From: Hymenobacter plasmatis
GTDB taxonomy: Bacteria > Bacteroidota > Bacteroidia > Cytophagales > Hymenobacteraceae
DNA length: 64,000 nt
NCBI RefSeq assembly: GCF_020711255.1
Contig: NZ_JAJFAW010000026.1
Coordinates: forward strand, 1-64,000
Direction of reading: 5' to 3'
This document shows, one piece after another, positions 50,992-57,878 of the stretch. How positions within the stretch are numbered: the first letter of the stretch is position 1; every line of letters begins with the position of its first letter. Below the pieces are notes generated by a model, which saw only the letters and a program-made list of their open reading frames with translations, had not been told where the DNA came from and made no database searches. The translations under genes were made by a program, and so were the position numbers.

Positions 50992-53900
50992 ATGAAGCAT
51001 TTAGTTCTTCTTACTGCATGGCTGGGTTTGGTACTGGGCGGCTATTCGTCGGCTCAGGCCCAAACCAAAGCGCCGGCTCCGGGTGGGGCGGCGCCGGCCG
51101 CCGCGCCCCGCTACCAGGTGGGCCGGCTCTCGACCGACCCGGCCCAGTACATCATTGATGTGCAGAGCATGATGGCCAGCACCAACAACGCCGCTGCCCG
51201 CGCCATGGGCGCCCGCCTGAGAGAGCTGTGGGGCACCAACCGCCTCACGTCGTCGCAGCAGGCGCGCATCGTGGCCTTGTCGCAGGTGATGCTGGCGAAG
51301 AAGTTTCGGCCCCGGCCGCACTTTGAGCAGCTGTACGCGGCCATCATTGGCGGCGCGAACTCGACCAAGCTCACCGACCAGCAAATGGACCAGTACCTCG
51401 ACGTGCTGGGCCAAACCCTGGAGAAAGAAGCCCCACAGGAAACCGAGAAATTCATCTTCAGCACCAGCCGTTTCTTAAACGGCGGCTACTTCTACCGCTC
51501 CGGCTACAGCTCGCTGCGGGCCGTGGGCGGCACGATTTCGTTTGCGTATTCGCCCATTGCCGCGCCGGTTTCCAACCTGGAATTTGGCGCGTCGGCGCCC
51601 GCGCCCAAAGACGAGCCGCTGCCGGCCGCCAAGAAGCCTGTGGCCGCGGCCAAGACACCAGCAAAAGCGGCTCCCAAGCCCGCTGCTCCCAAGCCCAAGA
51701 AAAAAGCAAGCAGCAGCGGCTGGGATACGGCCGACATGTGGTCGTCGCCCTCGGGTGGCGGCTGGGGCGATTCGGACGACGGCTGGGGTGCGCCTGTGAA
51801 GAAAAAAGCGCCGGCCAAAAAGCCCGTGGCCAAAACGGCTACCAAGGCCAGCCCAACCGCCGCGCCCGTGAAAGCGGCCGCGGCCACCGCAAAGGCCGCG
51901 GACTTTGAGCCGCCTACGGCTTCGTTTACGCCCTCGGCGCTGCCCTACGACGACTACATGGCGCCGCCGGCCCGTGGCGCCGTAATCGTGGTGAAGGATG
52001 CCGACCTGCATATGGGCACGGCCGGCGACTCGGTGGTGCTGAAGAAAGTGAGCGGCACGGCCGTGCCCAACTCCGGCCGGTTTCTGGCCACGGGCGGGCA
52101 GTTTGCCTGGGTCATCAAAGGCAATCCGGTAACGGCCGACCTGGCCGGGTTTGACTTCGACATGAGCAAGCCCGAGTTCACGGTGCAGCCCGTCACCCTC
52201 ACGTATCCGGCCGTGCTGGAGGCCCCCGTGAAAGGCGCGCTCAGCTACAAGAGCGTGCGGCGCAAGCCCGGCGCCACCGACACCGGCTACCCGCGCTTCA
52301 TCTCGCTCACCAACGACGCCCGCATTAAAAACCTGGGCGAGAATATTCAGTACCGGGGCGGCCTGTCGATGGCCGGCGGCAAGGTGCTCAGCGCGGCCCT
52401 CGACGGCTCGCCCTCTAACCTTTTCGTGAGCCTGGGCGGCAAGCCCAAGTTCAAAGCGTCGTCGCGGGCCTACGTGCTGGGCGACTCGGTTATCACGGCC
52501 AATCGGGCGGCGGTGACCATCTACGAAGGCGCCAAAGACTCCGTAACGCACCCCGGCACCCAGCTCAAGTACCTGAAAGGCAAGCAGCAGCTGAAGCTGG
52601 CGCGCGAAGAGGGCCTCTACAAGAACACGCCCTACAGCGACTCCTATCACCAGATGGATATTCGCACCGAGGCGCTGACCTGGAACCTGAACAGCCCCAC
52701 CATCGACTTCGCCGTGCTCTCGGCCAAGAACCAGCAAACGGCCGATTTCGAGAGCAAAGAATTCTTTACCAACAGCCGCTACCAGCAGCTCAAGAGCATC
52801 AACCGGCTGCACCCGCTGCAAATGCTGGTGGGCTACAGCCAGAGCCACGGCAACGCCAAAACGCTGAACGTGTCGACCCTGGCCACCGACCTGCAAACCT
52901 CGGAGCCCAACATGCGCAGCGCCATGGCCGGCCTGGCGCGCGACGGCTATGTGGAGTGGAACCCCCAAACCGGCGACGTGACCATTCTGCCCAAGGGCGC
53001 GCACTACGTGGCGTCGGCCCGCGATAAAAAGGACTACGACCATATCGCCATCAAGTCGCTGTCGGGCTCGGGCCGCAACGCCACCCTCAACCTGAACACC
53101 AACGAGCTGACGGTGCGCGGCGTGGACCGCTTCAACTTCTCCGACGACTCGGCCACGGTGTTTGTGCGGCCGGACAGCGCCATCATTCGCATTCAGAAAA
53201 ACCGCAACATCAACTTCAACGGCACGGTGGTGGCGTCGGCCATGCGCTTCAAAGGCCGCGAGTTTAAGTTCGACTACGACGGGTTTTACGTCGACATGGC
53301 CAAGATTGACTCCATCGTCATTCGCAGCGAGGCCAAAGACGCCAAGGGCAAGCCCACCGGCAAGCACGCCGACTTTGCCCTCACCAACAAAGGCAAGGTC
53401 TCGACCGGCCGCCTCTTCTTGAACGACCCCAAAAACAAGTCGGGCCGCAAGAAGAAGGGCCAGTACCCGGCCTTCGATTCCAAGAGCGGGGCCAACGTGT
53501 ACTTCCGCAAGCAGGACGTGCTGGGCGGCGCCTACGACTCCACGATGGTGTTCGACATCCCGCCGTTTAAGCTCGATTCGCTCAACGGCATCGGCAAGAC
53601 GGCCACCGGCTTCAACGGCACGTTCCGCAGCGGCGGCATTATCCCCGACATTCAGACCAAGCTCACCGTGCAGGAAGACGGCTCGCTGGGCTTCGTGTAC
53701 GACGTGCCCAAGGACGGCTTCCCGCTGTACAAAGGCCGCGGGCGGGTGTTTAACAAGGTGAAGATGAATGGCAAAGGACTGCAGGGCGACGGCACCATCA
53801 CCTACCAGTCGGGCACGTTTACGTCCAACAGCTTCGTGTTTTACCGCGACTCGGTGGTGACGGTGGGCCGGACGGGCGCCATTGCGGCCAAGAAAGCCGA

Positions 53901-56517
53901 GGGCGTGGACATTCCGAAAATGAGTTTGCCCACCGGCTACCTTATGAACTGGAACGTGCGCCGCGACTCCATGTTCCTGACCACGCCGCGCACCGGCGAG
54001 GCCATCCGCATGTACACCGCCGCCGACCAGAAAACCAAAACGGTGACGGCCTACAACTTCAAAGGAACCGCCGTGCTGACGCCTAAAAACGTGGGTGGTG
54101 ACGGCCGCCTCGACGGGCCGCAGTCGTTCATCAAGTCGCCGGCGTTCACGTTCAAAACCGACAGCTACTCGGGGCGCAAGGCCACAGTGAGCATCAAGTC
54201 GGCTGAAGCCAACAAGCCCGCCCTCACGGCCAACGACGTGGCCTTCGACTACAACCTGAGCCGGGGCTTTGCCGACTTCAAGCGCGAAGAAGGTAGCAAG
54301 GCCAGTATCGATTTACCGTACTCGAAGTTTAAAACCACGCTCAGCGGCGGGCACTGGGACTTCAAGAAAAAGCAAGTGGTGCTGCGCGTGGCCGCCAATG
54401 CCGACTCCACCAAGTCGTACTTCTACTCCACCAACCCCGACCAGCAGGGGCTGAAGTTTAAGGCCTCGAGCGGCGTGTACGACCTGGCCAAGTACCGCAT
54501 GCAGGTGGGCGGCGTGCCCTACATCGCCGCCGCCGATGCCTGGATTACCCCGGACTCGGGCAAGGTCAGCATTGGGGCCAATGGCCGCATCCAGCGCTTC
54601 CGCAACGCGGGCGTAGTGCTCGACTCCCTGGATAAATTCCACCACTTGGTGAAAGGCAACGTGGAGGTGCTCTCGAAAGCAGCCTTCACCGGCAATGCCG
54701 AGTACACCATCAAAACTGCCCGCGACTCGGTGGCACTGCGCTTCGGCAACTTCGAGCCCGACCCGGCCGCGATTCTGGCCGGCAAAGGCAGGGCCGCGCG
54801 CAAGAACAAGGACGAATTTGCGGGCGCCGCCACGGTAGGCCCGCCCACTGTGGCCACGGCCGTGGTGAGCCCAGGGAGCAAGTTTCAGCTCACGCCGCGC
54901 ATCGGCTACCGTGGCAACGTGCTGCTCAACTCGCGGCGCCGCGGCTTTGCTTTCGACGGCCAGGTGCAGCTGCAGTTTGGCAAAGACCGCAAGTCGGCCG
55001 AATGGATTGCGATGAAGGACTCCATCGACCCGAAGAATTTCAGCCTCAACCTGAAGGACATCAAGGCCGAGGACGGCTCGCCGCTCGTGACCGGCTTGTT
55101 CATGTCGGACCAGACCAACAAGGTGTACCCGCTGTATGCCGCTACCCTGCCCAACAATACCGATGTGTCCATTCTGAAAGTAGACGGCCAGCTGCGGTAC
55201 GACGACAAAAAGGGCATTTACACCATCTCGCGCAACGACCTGAGCGACGTGAATGCCTACGAAGGCGCCATGCTGGCTTACACCGATGCCACCAACTCGC
55301 TCAGCTTCCGGGGCCCGATGACGTTCATTAACTCGAACAAAAACTACAAGCTGGTGGGCAGTGGCGTGGGCACCGCCAACCCCGACAGCGCCCGCTATTC
55401 GATAGATGCGCTGCTGGGCTTCGACATCGGCATGCCCGAGAAAGCCGTGGCCGCCATGGGCACCGAGCTGGCGCGCGTGACCAAAGGCTCGCCCGAAGCC
55501 CTGGACGGCTCCACCAACGAGCTGTACAAATTGGGCCAGTTTATCGGCAACAAGGGCGTGGAGGAGTACACCATGCGCAAAGGCGCCACCGCCGACCTCA
55601 TGAAGCTCTCGCCCAAGCTCATGCACACCATCATGCTGAGCAAGGTAGACCTCCGCTGGAGCGAGAAGCGGCGCGCCTGGTACTCGGTGGGCAAGCTGGG
55701 ACTGGCCGGCGTGGGCAAGCAGCCGCTCAACGCCCTGATTGACGGCCACGTAGAAATCCGCCGCGAAAACAACACCGACCTGGTGGAAATCTACCTCGAG
55801 CCCGAGCCCCAGACCTGGTACTACTTCAAGTACGCCAACAACCTGCTGCTGGCGAAATCGTCGAGCGAAAACTTCGACGCCGAAGTGGGCGGCAAGGCCA
55901 AGGGCGACTACAACACGGCCACCAGCTACGGCGCCTTCCTCGGCGACTTCACCGACGTGGATGCCTTCCGCTCGCACTTCCAGCGCGACTACTTGGGCAA
56001 GAGCGGCAAGCTGACCGCCCGCCCGGCAGCCCCGGCCCCCAGCACCTTCGACACCTTCGAAGGCAAGAAGGGTAAAAAGAAAAAAGGGCAGGAGGACGCC
56101 TTCGGTACTACCGACCCCAACGCGGCACCCGCGGCCGATGCCGCCCCCGAGCCCACCAAAAAGAAGAAAAAGGCCAAAGCCAACGACCCCTTCGGCGACG
56201 GCGTGATGGAAGATCCCAACGCGCCGGCTGCCACCGCCGAGCCCGCCAACAAGAAGGAAAAGGTGAAGGTGAAAGCCGCCGACACCCCTGCGGCGGCCGA
56301 CGCAACCGAGCCCGACCTCAAAAAGGTGAAGACCAAGACCAAAGCCGCCGACGCTGCTCCCGATGCCGAAGCCGCGCCCGACCCGGCCCAGGACAAGAAA
56401 GAAGCCGCCCGCCTCGCCAAAGAAGCTGAAAAGCAGAAAAAGGAGGAAGAGAAGCGGAAGAAGGAAGAAGAAAAGAAGAAAAAGAAAGCCACCGAGGACC
56501 CCTTCGGCGACTCGTAG
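50992..56517 (+). CDS. Giant exported protein of unknown function
   Basis: This 1841-residue protein has a signal peptide ending YSSAQAQ and low-complexity Ala/Lys/Pro and Gly/Trp segments at about 200-315. A very long beta-rich body (about 320-1660) has repeated short strands such as DSVVLKKVSG, DSVITANRAAVTIYEGAKDS and KGRGRVFNKVKMNGKG. The C-terminal tail (about 1680-1841) is Lys/Ala/Glu-rich and carries DAFGTTDP, NDPFGDG and a terminal EDPFGDS. Residues about 603-673 (LHPLQMLVGYSQ ... TLATDLQTSEPNMRSAMAGL ... GYVEWNPQTGDVTIL) resemble a winged helix. I do not recognise the family. The beta-rich body and signal peptide suggest a periplasmic or surface structural protein. ATG 50992 is chosen at the signal peptide. 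A strong terminator follows. Confidence 0.8.
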   Translation: MKHLVLLTAWLGLVLGGYSSAQAQTKAPAPGGAAPAAAPRYQVGRLSTDPAQYIIDVQSMMASTNNAAARAMGARLRELWGTNRLTSSQQARIVALSQVMLAKKFRPRPHFEQLYAAIIGGANSTKLTDQQMDQYLDVLGQTLEKEAPQETEKFIFSTSRFLNGGYFYRSGYSSLRAVGGTISFAYSPIAAPVSNLEFGASAPAPKDEPLPAAKKPVAAAKTPAKAAPKPAAPKPKKKASSSGWDTADMWSSPSGGGWGDSDDGWGAPVKKKAPAKKPVAKTATKASPTAAPVKAAAATAKAADFEPPTASFTPSALPYDDYMAPPARGAVIVVKDADLHMGTAGDSVVLKKVSGTAVPNSGRFLATGGQFAWVIKGNPVTADLAGFDFDMSKPEFTVQPVTLTYPAVLEAPVKGALSYKSVRRKPGATDTGYPRFISLTNDARIKNLGENIQYRGGLSMAGGKVLSAALDGSPSNLFVSLGGKPKFKASSRAYVLGDSVITANRAAVTIYEGAKDSVTHPGTQLKYLKGKQQLKLAREEGLYKNTPYSDSYHQMDIRTEALTWNLNSPTIDFAVLSAKNQQTADFESKEFFTNSRYQQLKSINRLHPLQMLVGYSQSHGNAKTLNVSTLATDLQTSEPNMRSAMAGLARDGYVEWNPQTGDVTILPKGAHYVASARDKKDYDHIAIKSLSGSGRNATLNLNTNELTVRGVDRFNFSDDSATVFVRPDSAIIRIQKNRNINFNGTVVASAMRFKGREFKFDYDGFYVDMAKIDSIVIRSEAKDAKGKPTGKHADFALTNKGKVSTGRLFLNDPKNKSGRKKKGQYPAFDSKSGANVYFRKQDVLGGAYDSTMVFDIPPFKLDSLNGIGKTATGFNGTFRSGGIIPDIQTKLTVQEDGSLGFVYDVPKDGFPLYKGRGRVFNKVKMNGKGLQGDGTITYQSGTFTSNSFVFYRDSVVTVGRTGAIAAKKAEGVDIPKMSLPTGYLMNWNVRRDSMFLTTPRTGEAIRMYTAADQKTKTVTAYNFKGTAVLTPKNVGGDGRLDGPQSFIKSPAFTFKTDSYSGRKATVSIKSAEANKPALTANDVAFDYNLSRGFADFKREEGSKASIDLPYSKFKTTLSGGHWDFKKKQVVLRVAANADSTKSYFYSTNPDQQGLKFKASSGVYDLAKYRMQVGGVPYIAAADAWITPDSGKVSIGANGRIQRFRNAGVVLDSLDKFHHLVKGNVEVLSKAAFTGNAEYTIKTARDSVALRFGNFEPDPAAILAGKGRAARKNKDEFAGAATVGPPTVATAVVSPGSKFQLTPRIGYRGNVLLNSRRRGFAFDGQVQLQFGKDRKSAEWIAMKDSIDPKNFSLNLKDIKAEDGSPLVTGLFMSDQTNKVYPLYAATLPNNTDVSILKVDGQLRYDDKKGIYTISRNDLSDVNAYEGAMLAYTDATNSLSFRGPMTFINSNKNYKLVGSGVGTANPDSARYSIDALLGFDIGMPEKAVAAMGTELARVTKGSPEALDGSTNELYKLGQFIGNKGVEEYTMRKGATADLMKLSPKLMHTIMLSKVDLRWSEKRRAWYSVGKLGLAGVGKQPLNALIDGHVEIRRENNTDLVEIYLEPEPQTWYYFKYANNLLLAKSSSENFDAEVGGKAKGDYNTATSYGAFLGDFTDVDAFRSHFQRDYLGKSGKLTARPAAPAPSTFDTFEGKKGKKKKGQEDAFGTTDPNAAPAADAAPEPTKKKKKAKANDPFGDGVMEDPNAPAATAEPANKKEKVKVKAADTPAAADATEPDLKKVKTKTKAADAAPDAEAAPDPAQDKKEAARLAKEAEKQKKEEEKRKKEEEKKKKKATEDPFGDS

Positions 56518-56577: not shown

Positions 56578-57222
56578 ATGAATGTCCTATATATCGCCCT
56601 TGCCCTGCTTGCCGCCTACCTCCTTGGTTCTATCCCAACTGCGCTGTGGGTGGGCCGCCGCTTCTTTGGGCTGGCCGACATCCGCGAGCACGGCTCCGGC
56701 AACGCCGGCGCTACCAATACCTTCCGGGTGCTGGGCCCCAAGGCGGGCTCGGTGGTCCTGCTTATTGATGCGCTGAAAGGCTTTGTGGCCGCCTACTTTT
56801 TGCCGGCGTGGCTGGTAGCCCAGGGAGCCATTCAGCCTGAGCACGAACTGTACTTTAAGCTGGCCTGCGGTGTGCTCGCCATTGTGGGGCACATCTATCC
56901 GGTCTTTGCGCAGTTCCGGGGCGGCAAGGGCGTGGCCACGGTGCTGGGCATGATGCTGGGCGTGGCCCCGGCCACGGTGGGCGTGTGCCTGCTGGTGTTT
57001 CTACTCATGCTGGCCGTGTTCCGCTACGTCTCGCTGGCCAGCATGACGGCGGGCGTGACCTTCGCGCTACTGCAGCTGCTGCCCCAGTTCCGGCCAGCCC
57101 AACCGTTTATGGTGTGGGTAGGCTTCTTGCTGGCCGTGCTCCTCATCTACACCCACCGGGCCAATATCGGCCGCCTGCGCAGCGGGACGGAAAGCCGCGT
57201 GCCGCTATTTGGGCGGAAGTAG
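56578..57222 (+). CDS. plsY: Glycerol-3-phosphate acyltransferase (PlsY)
   Basis: PlsY transfers an acyl group from acyl-phosphate to glycerol 3-phosphate, starting phospholipid synthesis in the inner membrane. The 214-residue protein has about five to seven hydrophobic segments. Family motifs visible are LLGSIPTALWVGRRFFGLADIREHGSGNAGATNTFRVLG-like sequence (read in pieces: GSIPTALWV, REHGSGNAGATN, RVLGPKAG), the Lys-containing GGKGVAT, and YTHRANIGRLRSGTE near the C-terminus. The length is typical. The gene starts 20 bases after the terminator of the giant gene, so it has its own promoter or is read through. The next gene is 80 bases on. Confidence 0.95.
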   Translation: MNVLYIALALLAAYLLGSIPTALWVGRRFFGLADIREHGSGNAGATNTFRVLGPKAGSVVLLIDALKGFVAAYFLPAWLVAQGAIQPEHELYFKLACGVLAIVGHIYPVFAQFRGGKGVATVLGMMLGVAPATVGVCLLVFLLMLAVFRYVSLASMTAGVTFALLQLLPQFRPAQPFMVWVGFLLAVLLIYTHRANIGRLRSGTESRVPLFGRK

Positions 57223-57302: not shown

Positions 57303-57878
57303 ATGCGGTCCCTGTTTCGCTTCCTGATTCTGCTGTTTCTCACGCTGCCCGCTGCTGCTCAGAAATACAATACCCCTCTGGGCACTGCCCCGGCGGGCTT
57401 CCGGTGGCAGGCGCTGCCCGACATCAAAGCGGCCATGCCCTTGCCCGAAGGCTGGTACTACAAGGCCGACGGGCAGAAGGGCGCCACTACCTACTTCCTG
57501 ACCCGCGATGAAATAGGGGAGAGCGGTGAGTTTCAGCCCGGAGCGTCGCTGAACGTAGTGCGCAAGGTGAAAGCCAAAACCGGCCGCCAGGCCGCCGACT
57601 ACGCCGAGTTGCTGATGCTAAGGACCGGGTTTGGCCCGGGGCAGCAGCAGTTGGACAAGACGTCCTCGGTCGACGGCCCGTTCTACAAGCGCGCGGTGCG
57701 CTACCGCGAAGCTCCGCCTGAGGCCGAGCCCCGCGTGGTGTACCAAATGGCCCTGGCCAACGCCAAGACCGACACGCTCTACCTGCTCACCTTCGAAAGC
57801 CCCGAGAAAGACTGGGCTGATGCCTGGAAGCTGGGCGAGGTAATGCTGCGTGAGCTGGTGCTGGATGCGCGCTTGTAA
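57303..57878 (+). CDS. Secreted hypothetical protein
   Basis: The 191-residue product has a signal peptide (RFLILLFLTLPAAAQ). The mature part contains GFRWQALPDIKAAMPLPEGWYY, TYFLTRDEIGE, LNVVRKVKAKTGRQAADY and YLLTFESPEKDWADAWKLGE. These are typical of a small stand-alone beta-sheet domain that is frequently annotated without function in Bacteroidota. Neither a catalytic motif nor cysteine pairs are apparent. It lies between plsY and an M20 peptidase, all rightward, with no evidence of functional linkage. Confidence 0.8.
   Translation: MRSLFRFLILLFLTLPAAAQKYNTPLGTAPAGFRWQALPDIKAAMPLPEGWYYKADGQKGATTYFLTRDEIGESGEFQPGASLNVVRKVKAKTGRQAADYAELLMLRTGFGPGQQQLDKTSSVDGPFYKRAVRYREAPPEAEPRVVYQMALANAKTDTLYLLTFESPEKDWADAWKLGEVMLRELVLDARL

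Follow-up and report, generated by a model that had tools for sequence, protein, structure and literature searches.

The closest described systems include those built on the Lpt fold. LptC, LptA and LptH are small proteins (125–175 residues in the solved chains) that assemble end to end, and the periplasmic domain of LptD continues into an outer-membrane barrel. Bacteroidota also encode an OstA-like protein, OstA_2 (PF13100), with ORFs of about 500–800 aa. The Lpt and TamB folds resemble each other, and the TamB/AsmA-like proteins, TamB2 included, are envelope proteins of very large size (most ORFs between about 1450 and 1900 aa) that are presumed to pass lipid.

Here we analysed a stretch of 64,000 nucleotides from Hymenobacter plasmatis (contig NZ_JAJFAW010000026.1, positions 1 to 64,000; hereafter the window), which also encodes a very large protein with an export-type N-terminus. 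In the predicted models, several units of the LptC/LptA/LptH type follow each other in its single chain. This giant protein is not named in the literature surveyed, which left subscription journals and preprints out of its scope and gives no proof of absence.

Sequence features of the giant gene

The reading frame is open from 50875 (GTG), and the ATG at 50992 gives a product of 1841 aa. It is the largest gene of the window, as a preliminary description of this DNA had it; the runner-up ORF has 1103 aa. It is a real gene, the body of which is under purifying selection (dN/dS over the body of 0.18, 0.22 and 0.34 against three same-genus copies). The following features were recognised in the sequence.

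50992..56517, + strand: giant gene, 1841-aa exported protein (ORF, sequence, near-relative matches, dN/dS)
50992..51063, + strand: signal peptide, residues 1–24, no lipobox, putative cleavage site (sequence)
51589..51945, + strand: Ala/Lys/Pro linker with Trp/Asp/Gly motifs, residues 200–318 (composition, alignment)
53563..53742, + strand: most conserved 60-residue window (A1 and A4), residues 858–917, from the end of module II (conservation)
56089..56514, + strand: Lys/Glu/Ala/Pro-rich tail, residues 1700–1841, last residues DPFGDS (sequence, composition)

The signal peptide proposed earlier is borne out by a short basic start, a hydrophobic core and Ala-Gln-Ala followed by Gln, with no Cys. 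Past residue 30, all 19-residue windows of the protein stay at or below 1.06 (Kyte-Doolittle). A hydrophobic N-terminal core was found in 126/132 sequences (window protein included), a lipobox-like motif in 2/132 and an additional hydrophobic window above 1.6 in 7/132. Ala followed by Gln or Asn occurs after the core in 94/132, which gives the N-terminus the look of a cleavable signal peptide, probably in place of a membrane anchor.

We also found the Ala/Lys/Pro linkers of the preliminary description, these three residues making up 60% of residues 200–318 and 54% of the tail. The linker is absent from 7/11 aligned relatives, and the tail is short or absent in most of the 11. One relative (L051:1814-8317) has 12 DPFTGE motifs in its tail, and in several same-genus copies the C-terminus reads DPFG and then acidic or small residues, possibly a short docking motif. 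Internal sequence repeats are weak (91-residue offset, probability about 50%). For a functional site, residues 858–917 are the foremost candidate.

The statement that the protein belongs to no recognised family held. Searches of Pfam, NCBIfam and PHROGs (hmmscan) and of the PDB, by sequence as well as by profile, gave only sub-threshold or chance-level matches, six divergent relatives gave nothing above chance against Pfam, and the profile and structure searches returned no full-length match to a characterised family. In the Pfam and NCBIfam scans of the window protein, we found no secretion or adhesion family and no type IX secretion C-terminal sorting domain (E ≤ 1). Neither the TamB domain PF04357 (E ≤ 1) nor Pfam OstA was matched by the window protein or by the six divergent relatives. 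The sole sequence hint was a sub-threshold match of residues 617–661 to SgrR_N (winged-helix), which the predicted structure explains.

Predicted fold of the body

Two overlapping AlphaFold2 models, with alignments of 80 sequences each, were used. Model 1 represents residues 22–1210 of a relative encoded in a Flavobacteriales MAG (pLDDT 87.7, pTM 0.57), and the other covers residues 690–1700 of the window protein (pLDDT 83.4, pTM 0.54). Mapped on to the window, the predicted domains are as follows (Z and rmsd from VIA-align).

51139..51483, + strand: predicted N-terminal helical domain, residues 50–164, six helices in model 1 (mapped from model 1)
52315..53217, + strand: predicted OstA-like module I, residues 442–742, split by the winged helix (LptD 9a39, Z 8.5, 169 aligned, rmsd 3.9 Å; 9ia2, Z 6.4, 138 aligned; mapped from model 1)
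52762..53028, + strand: predicted winged-helix domain inside module I, residues 591–679 (OhrR 2pex, Z 8.6, 67 aligned, rmsd 2.2 Å; 2hr3, Z 7.6; sub-threshold SgrR_N)
53107..53682, + strand: predicted OstA-like module II, residues 706–897 (one compact match, LptD 9fz5, Z 9.1, 144 aligned, rmsd 4.1 Å)
53866..54516, + strand: predicted OstA-like module III, residues 959–1175, strongest match (window protein model, LptD Z 11.5, LptA 9.5, LptC 9.3; model 1, LptC 6mit, Z 12.0, 128 residues aligned, rmsd 2.3 Å)
55039..55995, + strand: predicted C-terminal beta domain with helices, residues 1350–1668, no convincing fold match (window protein model, VIA-align)

With the window protein model, the best 16 VIA-align matches were LptD, LptA, LptC and LptH entries (Z 8.8–11.5; LptH 9.0), and the best unrelated one was junctophilin (Z 7.9). 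Fifteen of the 16 are Lpt proteins by title; 4q35, titled only 'membrane protein', we take to be LptD. With model 1, the top eight were Lpt-system entries, where LptC 6mit was followed by a second LptC (Z 10.9), LptA (10.9 and 10.2) and LptH (9.6); the best unrelated match outside the winged helix reached Z 6.2. Foldseek paired model 1 with LptC 4b54 (probability 1.00, TM by target length 0.73) and the window protein model with LptA 2r1a (probability 0.98, TM by target 0.65), the E-values of these single-module matches being poor (0.03–0.35). Its LptD matches had E-values near 1e-5 to 1e-3 with a global TM of at most 0.18. The five lowest Foldseek E-values of model 1 were those of teneurin and DDB1 (3e-7 to 6e-6), with ApoB at 4e-5; these likenesses (probability 0.21–0.66, TM at most 0.12) were treated as length effects. 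As the LptD matches of Foldseek are globally hardly better than these, we relied on VIA-align.

The compact Lpt matches fell on three successive stretches: many on residues 959–1175, one on 706–897 and two, with rmsd below 4 Å, on 442–742. These comparisons support the presence of the jellyroll fold of LptA, LptC and the N-terminal part of LptD (LptD-N) in the predicted models, most clearly in module III. The OstA-type match is strong in that stretch and thinner in the other two, modules I and II depending on few matches. Neither the C-terminal domain nor the N-terminal stretch of the body had a specific fold match in the comparisons run, which covered them scantily. For an outer-membrane barrel at the C-terminus, there were only weak matches to BAM-complex entries (Z 3.5–3.6; residues 661–960 of the window protein model). 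No TamB entry, which would have stood for a beta-taco fold, was among the 50 matches listed for these models, and such absence from a list is no evidence. The winged helix within module I is predicted to be of the MarR type. It goes beyond the preliminary description, as do the helical N-terminal domain and the distribution and gene order given below.

The body is indeed beta-rich, with 58% strand in the relative's model and a strand list from the window protein's own model that agrees. Outside the winged helix, model 1 has 79 body strands, and the window protein model adds 13 more. Arranged as two stacked sheets with a spacing of 4.8 Å, these could extend over ∼22 nm, enough for the periplasm; this figure is arithmetic and no measurement. 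The long strands are two-faced (hydrophobic/polar): the contrast observed over 35 strands was reached in 0/2000 shuffles, with Trp and Tyr scored as hydrophobic, a change from the standard scale. Such strands fit a lined groove, but equally any beta sandwich. A continuous groove is only a conjecture, because all the fold evidence is predicted and pTM is only 0.54–0.57. Two impressions of the preliminary description can thus be refined. For 'extended beta-helical', tandem beta-jellyroll is the better description. 'OstA/LptD-like' agrees with the predicted fold, the VIA-align leaders being Lpt proteins for both models, but the profile comparison with OstA_2 given below was empty.

Among the known proteins, LptC, LptA and LptH share with the giant protein the predicted fold of module III (Z 9.0–12.0) and the two-faced strands. 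It differs from them by the winged helix inside one unit and in that sequence similarity went undetected. The periplasmic domain of LptD is the best match of the window protein model, and also a match for modules I and II; unlike LptD, the giant protein has a C-terminal domain with no convincing barrel match.

Distribution, gene order and co-occurrence with transport genes

The giant protein has one match in its own genome, and the gene is present in 19/19 near-relative genomes (own genome included). In two same-genus genomes (G005 and G010) it is split over several reading frames, by frameshift or assembly error. It was found in 54/60 genomes drawn from the class Bacteroidia and, in a larger and overlapping draw, in 93/109 genomes (66/78 genera). 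A phylum-wide draw with a profile query gave 0/61 genomes of other classes and 5/19 of the own class (own included), a draw in which a few families without the gene are heavily represented. Universal presence in Bacteroidia is ruled out, since several families are without it; a second query agrees, with 0/14 genomes besides the query's own at E ≤ 0.001. In a named genome collection, 461/566 candidate stretches encode a relative. Among the 80 of these 461 that were listed, 78 are under Bacteroidota names (Acetofilamentum checked), one is under Verrucomicrobia (L105) and one under uncultured bacterium (L134). The median ORF length of relatives is 1504 aa. For the alignment, 51 relatives were found, six were left out and then five further same-genus copies; outside the genus, identity is 23–32% over the full alignment and 23–28% over residues 690–1700. 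At one locus (L031; G044:C42:307000-317500) the gene is duplicated in tandem, the copies being 77% identical over 1552 residues.

The gene that follows is:

56578..57222, + strand: plsY, glycerol-3-phosphate acyltransferase, separated from the stop of the giant gene by 60 bp (TIGR00023 over cut-off, synteny)

Counting only loci with room (L012, which ends 336 bp past its match, was left out), we found plsY just downstream and on the same strand in 9/9 same-genus loci, 16/31 loci of other orders and 26/72 database loci. Among the seven loci taken from the remainder of the order plus G044, plsY lies within the distance limit in two (L052 and L053), and dropping that limit adds L051, the locus of the long-tailed relative. 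Upstream, prmA was found in 7/9 same-genus, 19/32 other-order and 53/69 database loci, and tpiA is linked in 34/62 database loci and 0/7 same-genus loci; in the window the upstream neighbour is a divergent Gfo/Idh oxidoreductase. As gene order has been kept although the proteins are only about 25% identical, these counts suggest an old unit tpiA-prmA-[giant]-plsY. The link to plsY, an early gene of phospholipid synthesis, leans towards a phospholipid cargo. However, prmA and tpiA, which are no lipid-transport genes, are linked more often in the database loci, most of which have no plsY beside the giant gene, and the plsY link may thus be inherited order; as these two genes illustrate, neighbours of this kind do not have to share a function. 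No lpt gene (lptB/F/G/C/D) was found among the ten neighbour clusters with a scanned representative, of 23 listed. After plsY, 57303-57878 encodes a 191-aa protein with an export-like N-terminus, for which Pfam and NCBIfam gave no match. Weak PD40 and SPOR matches mark a 2356-aa protein (L084:12410-19477); its relatives stand downstream of the giant gene in 21/80 database loci.

We also compared the giant protein with OstA_2, LptF/G and TamB. OstA_2 shares its genomes and an export-type N-terminus, and is encoded at separate loci. Profile–profile comparison found no similarity to 17 OstA_2 proteins of the same class and, with hhalign, a probability of at most 0.2% against 30 partial TamB proteins of the class; the positive control between two alignments of the giant protein gave 100%. 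The OstA_2 and TamB profiles miss each other too, so that for folds of this kind it is a weak test. We would class the giant protein as Lpt-like by predicted fold, outside OstA_2 and TamB membership.

In 30 genomes (16 carriers of the giant gene and 14 non-carriers), OstA_2 was present in 28, namely 15/16 carriers (the exception being G047) and 13/14 non-carriers, and LptF/G and TamB were each matched in 29/30. The giant protein is therefore an additional protein. Replacement of OstA_2 is ruled out, as both co-occur, and carriers have no extra LptF/G pair: third matches were split ones, and non-carrier G107 has one further partial match. Two TamB genes were counted in 11/16 non-carriers versus 11/93 carriers (Fisher p 4.6e-6, uncorrected for phylogeny, genomes of one lineage being non-independent) and a second TamB in 9/13 non-carrier genera; the window's own genome has the giant gene and a second TamB together. 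This hand count took matches of at least 97 bits among those listed, with two contig-end pieces in G197 as one; three carriers have no TamB match, so that assembly quality may affect it. We take the more frequent second TamB of non-carriers as a lead.

A putative periplasmic lipid conduit

We favour, at about even confidence, a single-chain periplasmic lipid conduit of Lpt fold, the cargo of which is perhaps phospholipid. The protein would be soluble in the periplasm; along its body, OstA-type beta-jellyroll modules would succeed one another in one chain, possibly of sufficient length to reach across this compartment. It would act like an Lpt bridge, an amphiphilic lipid sliding along the greasy jellyroll groove between the inner and outer membranes, with docking at the two ends perhaps by the C-terminal and the helical N-terminal domains. 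A glycerophospholipid would be a more likely cargo than LPS, because in widely separated lineages the gene is often followed by plsY, and the customary LPS bridge gene is there in any case. A protein residing in the periplasm cannot use its winged helix on DNA, and our guess is that, in that event, this domain serves in docking.

The structures that match best in VIA-align belong to the LPS pathway, and one carrier has no OstA_2 match, which would also suit a dedicated LPS bridge, replacing or supplementing LptC, LptA and LptD-N in one chain that hands LPS to LptD. But non-carriers keep OstA_2 and LptF/G about as regularly as carriers do and thus have the machinery without the giant protein, and the plsY linkage leans to phospholipid; we consider such a bridge unlikely. 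The protein might instead be a far-diverged bridge of the AsmA/TamB type, interchangeable with TamB2, that looks Lpt-like through the resemblance of the two folds. Its size and the many strands of its body are in line with this, as is the tendency of a second TamB to occur where the giant gene does not. According to passages of PMC12045153, TamB2/TamL2 are found in 20/30 Bacteroidota species, are dispensable in F. johnsoniae and have no known function. We nevertheless find this origin quite improbable, given the missing Pfam TamB match and the negative hhalign result (weak as that test is), the apparent signal peptide in place of an evident membrane anchor, and the Lpt entries that lead VIA-align.

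The Lys-rich tail and linker of the window protein, and the repeated DPFTGE tail of one relative, could also be those of a structural or surface protein, be it an envelope spacer, a peptidoglycan binder or a secreted adhesin, made of a beta body with basic tails. Since linker and tail are missing or reduced in most of the aligned relatives, they would lie outside the core function, and with no secretion or adhesion family matched and specific Lpt fold matches in hand, we give this reading little credence.

Extending the favoured conduit further, we raise only tentatively, and with considerable doubt, that Bacteroidia may have a third type of lipid bridge across the envelope: a single-chain, tandem Lpt-fold bridge devoted to phospholipid, encoded with an acyltransferase that acts early in phospholipid synthesis, exchangeable with TamB2 in function and gated or docked via its internal winged helix. 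Work on how phospholipids arrive at the outer membrane is still in progress. A widely conserved protein of such length, with no match to a family in the libraries covered, an Lpt-type predicted fold and plsY as a frequent neighbour would be a testable candidate for this role in a major phylum.
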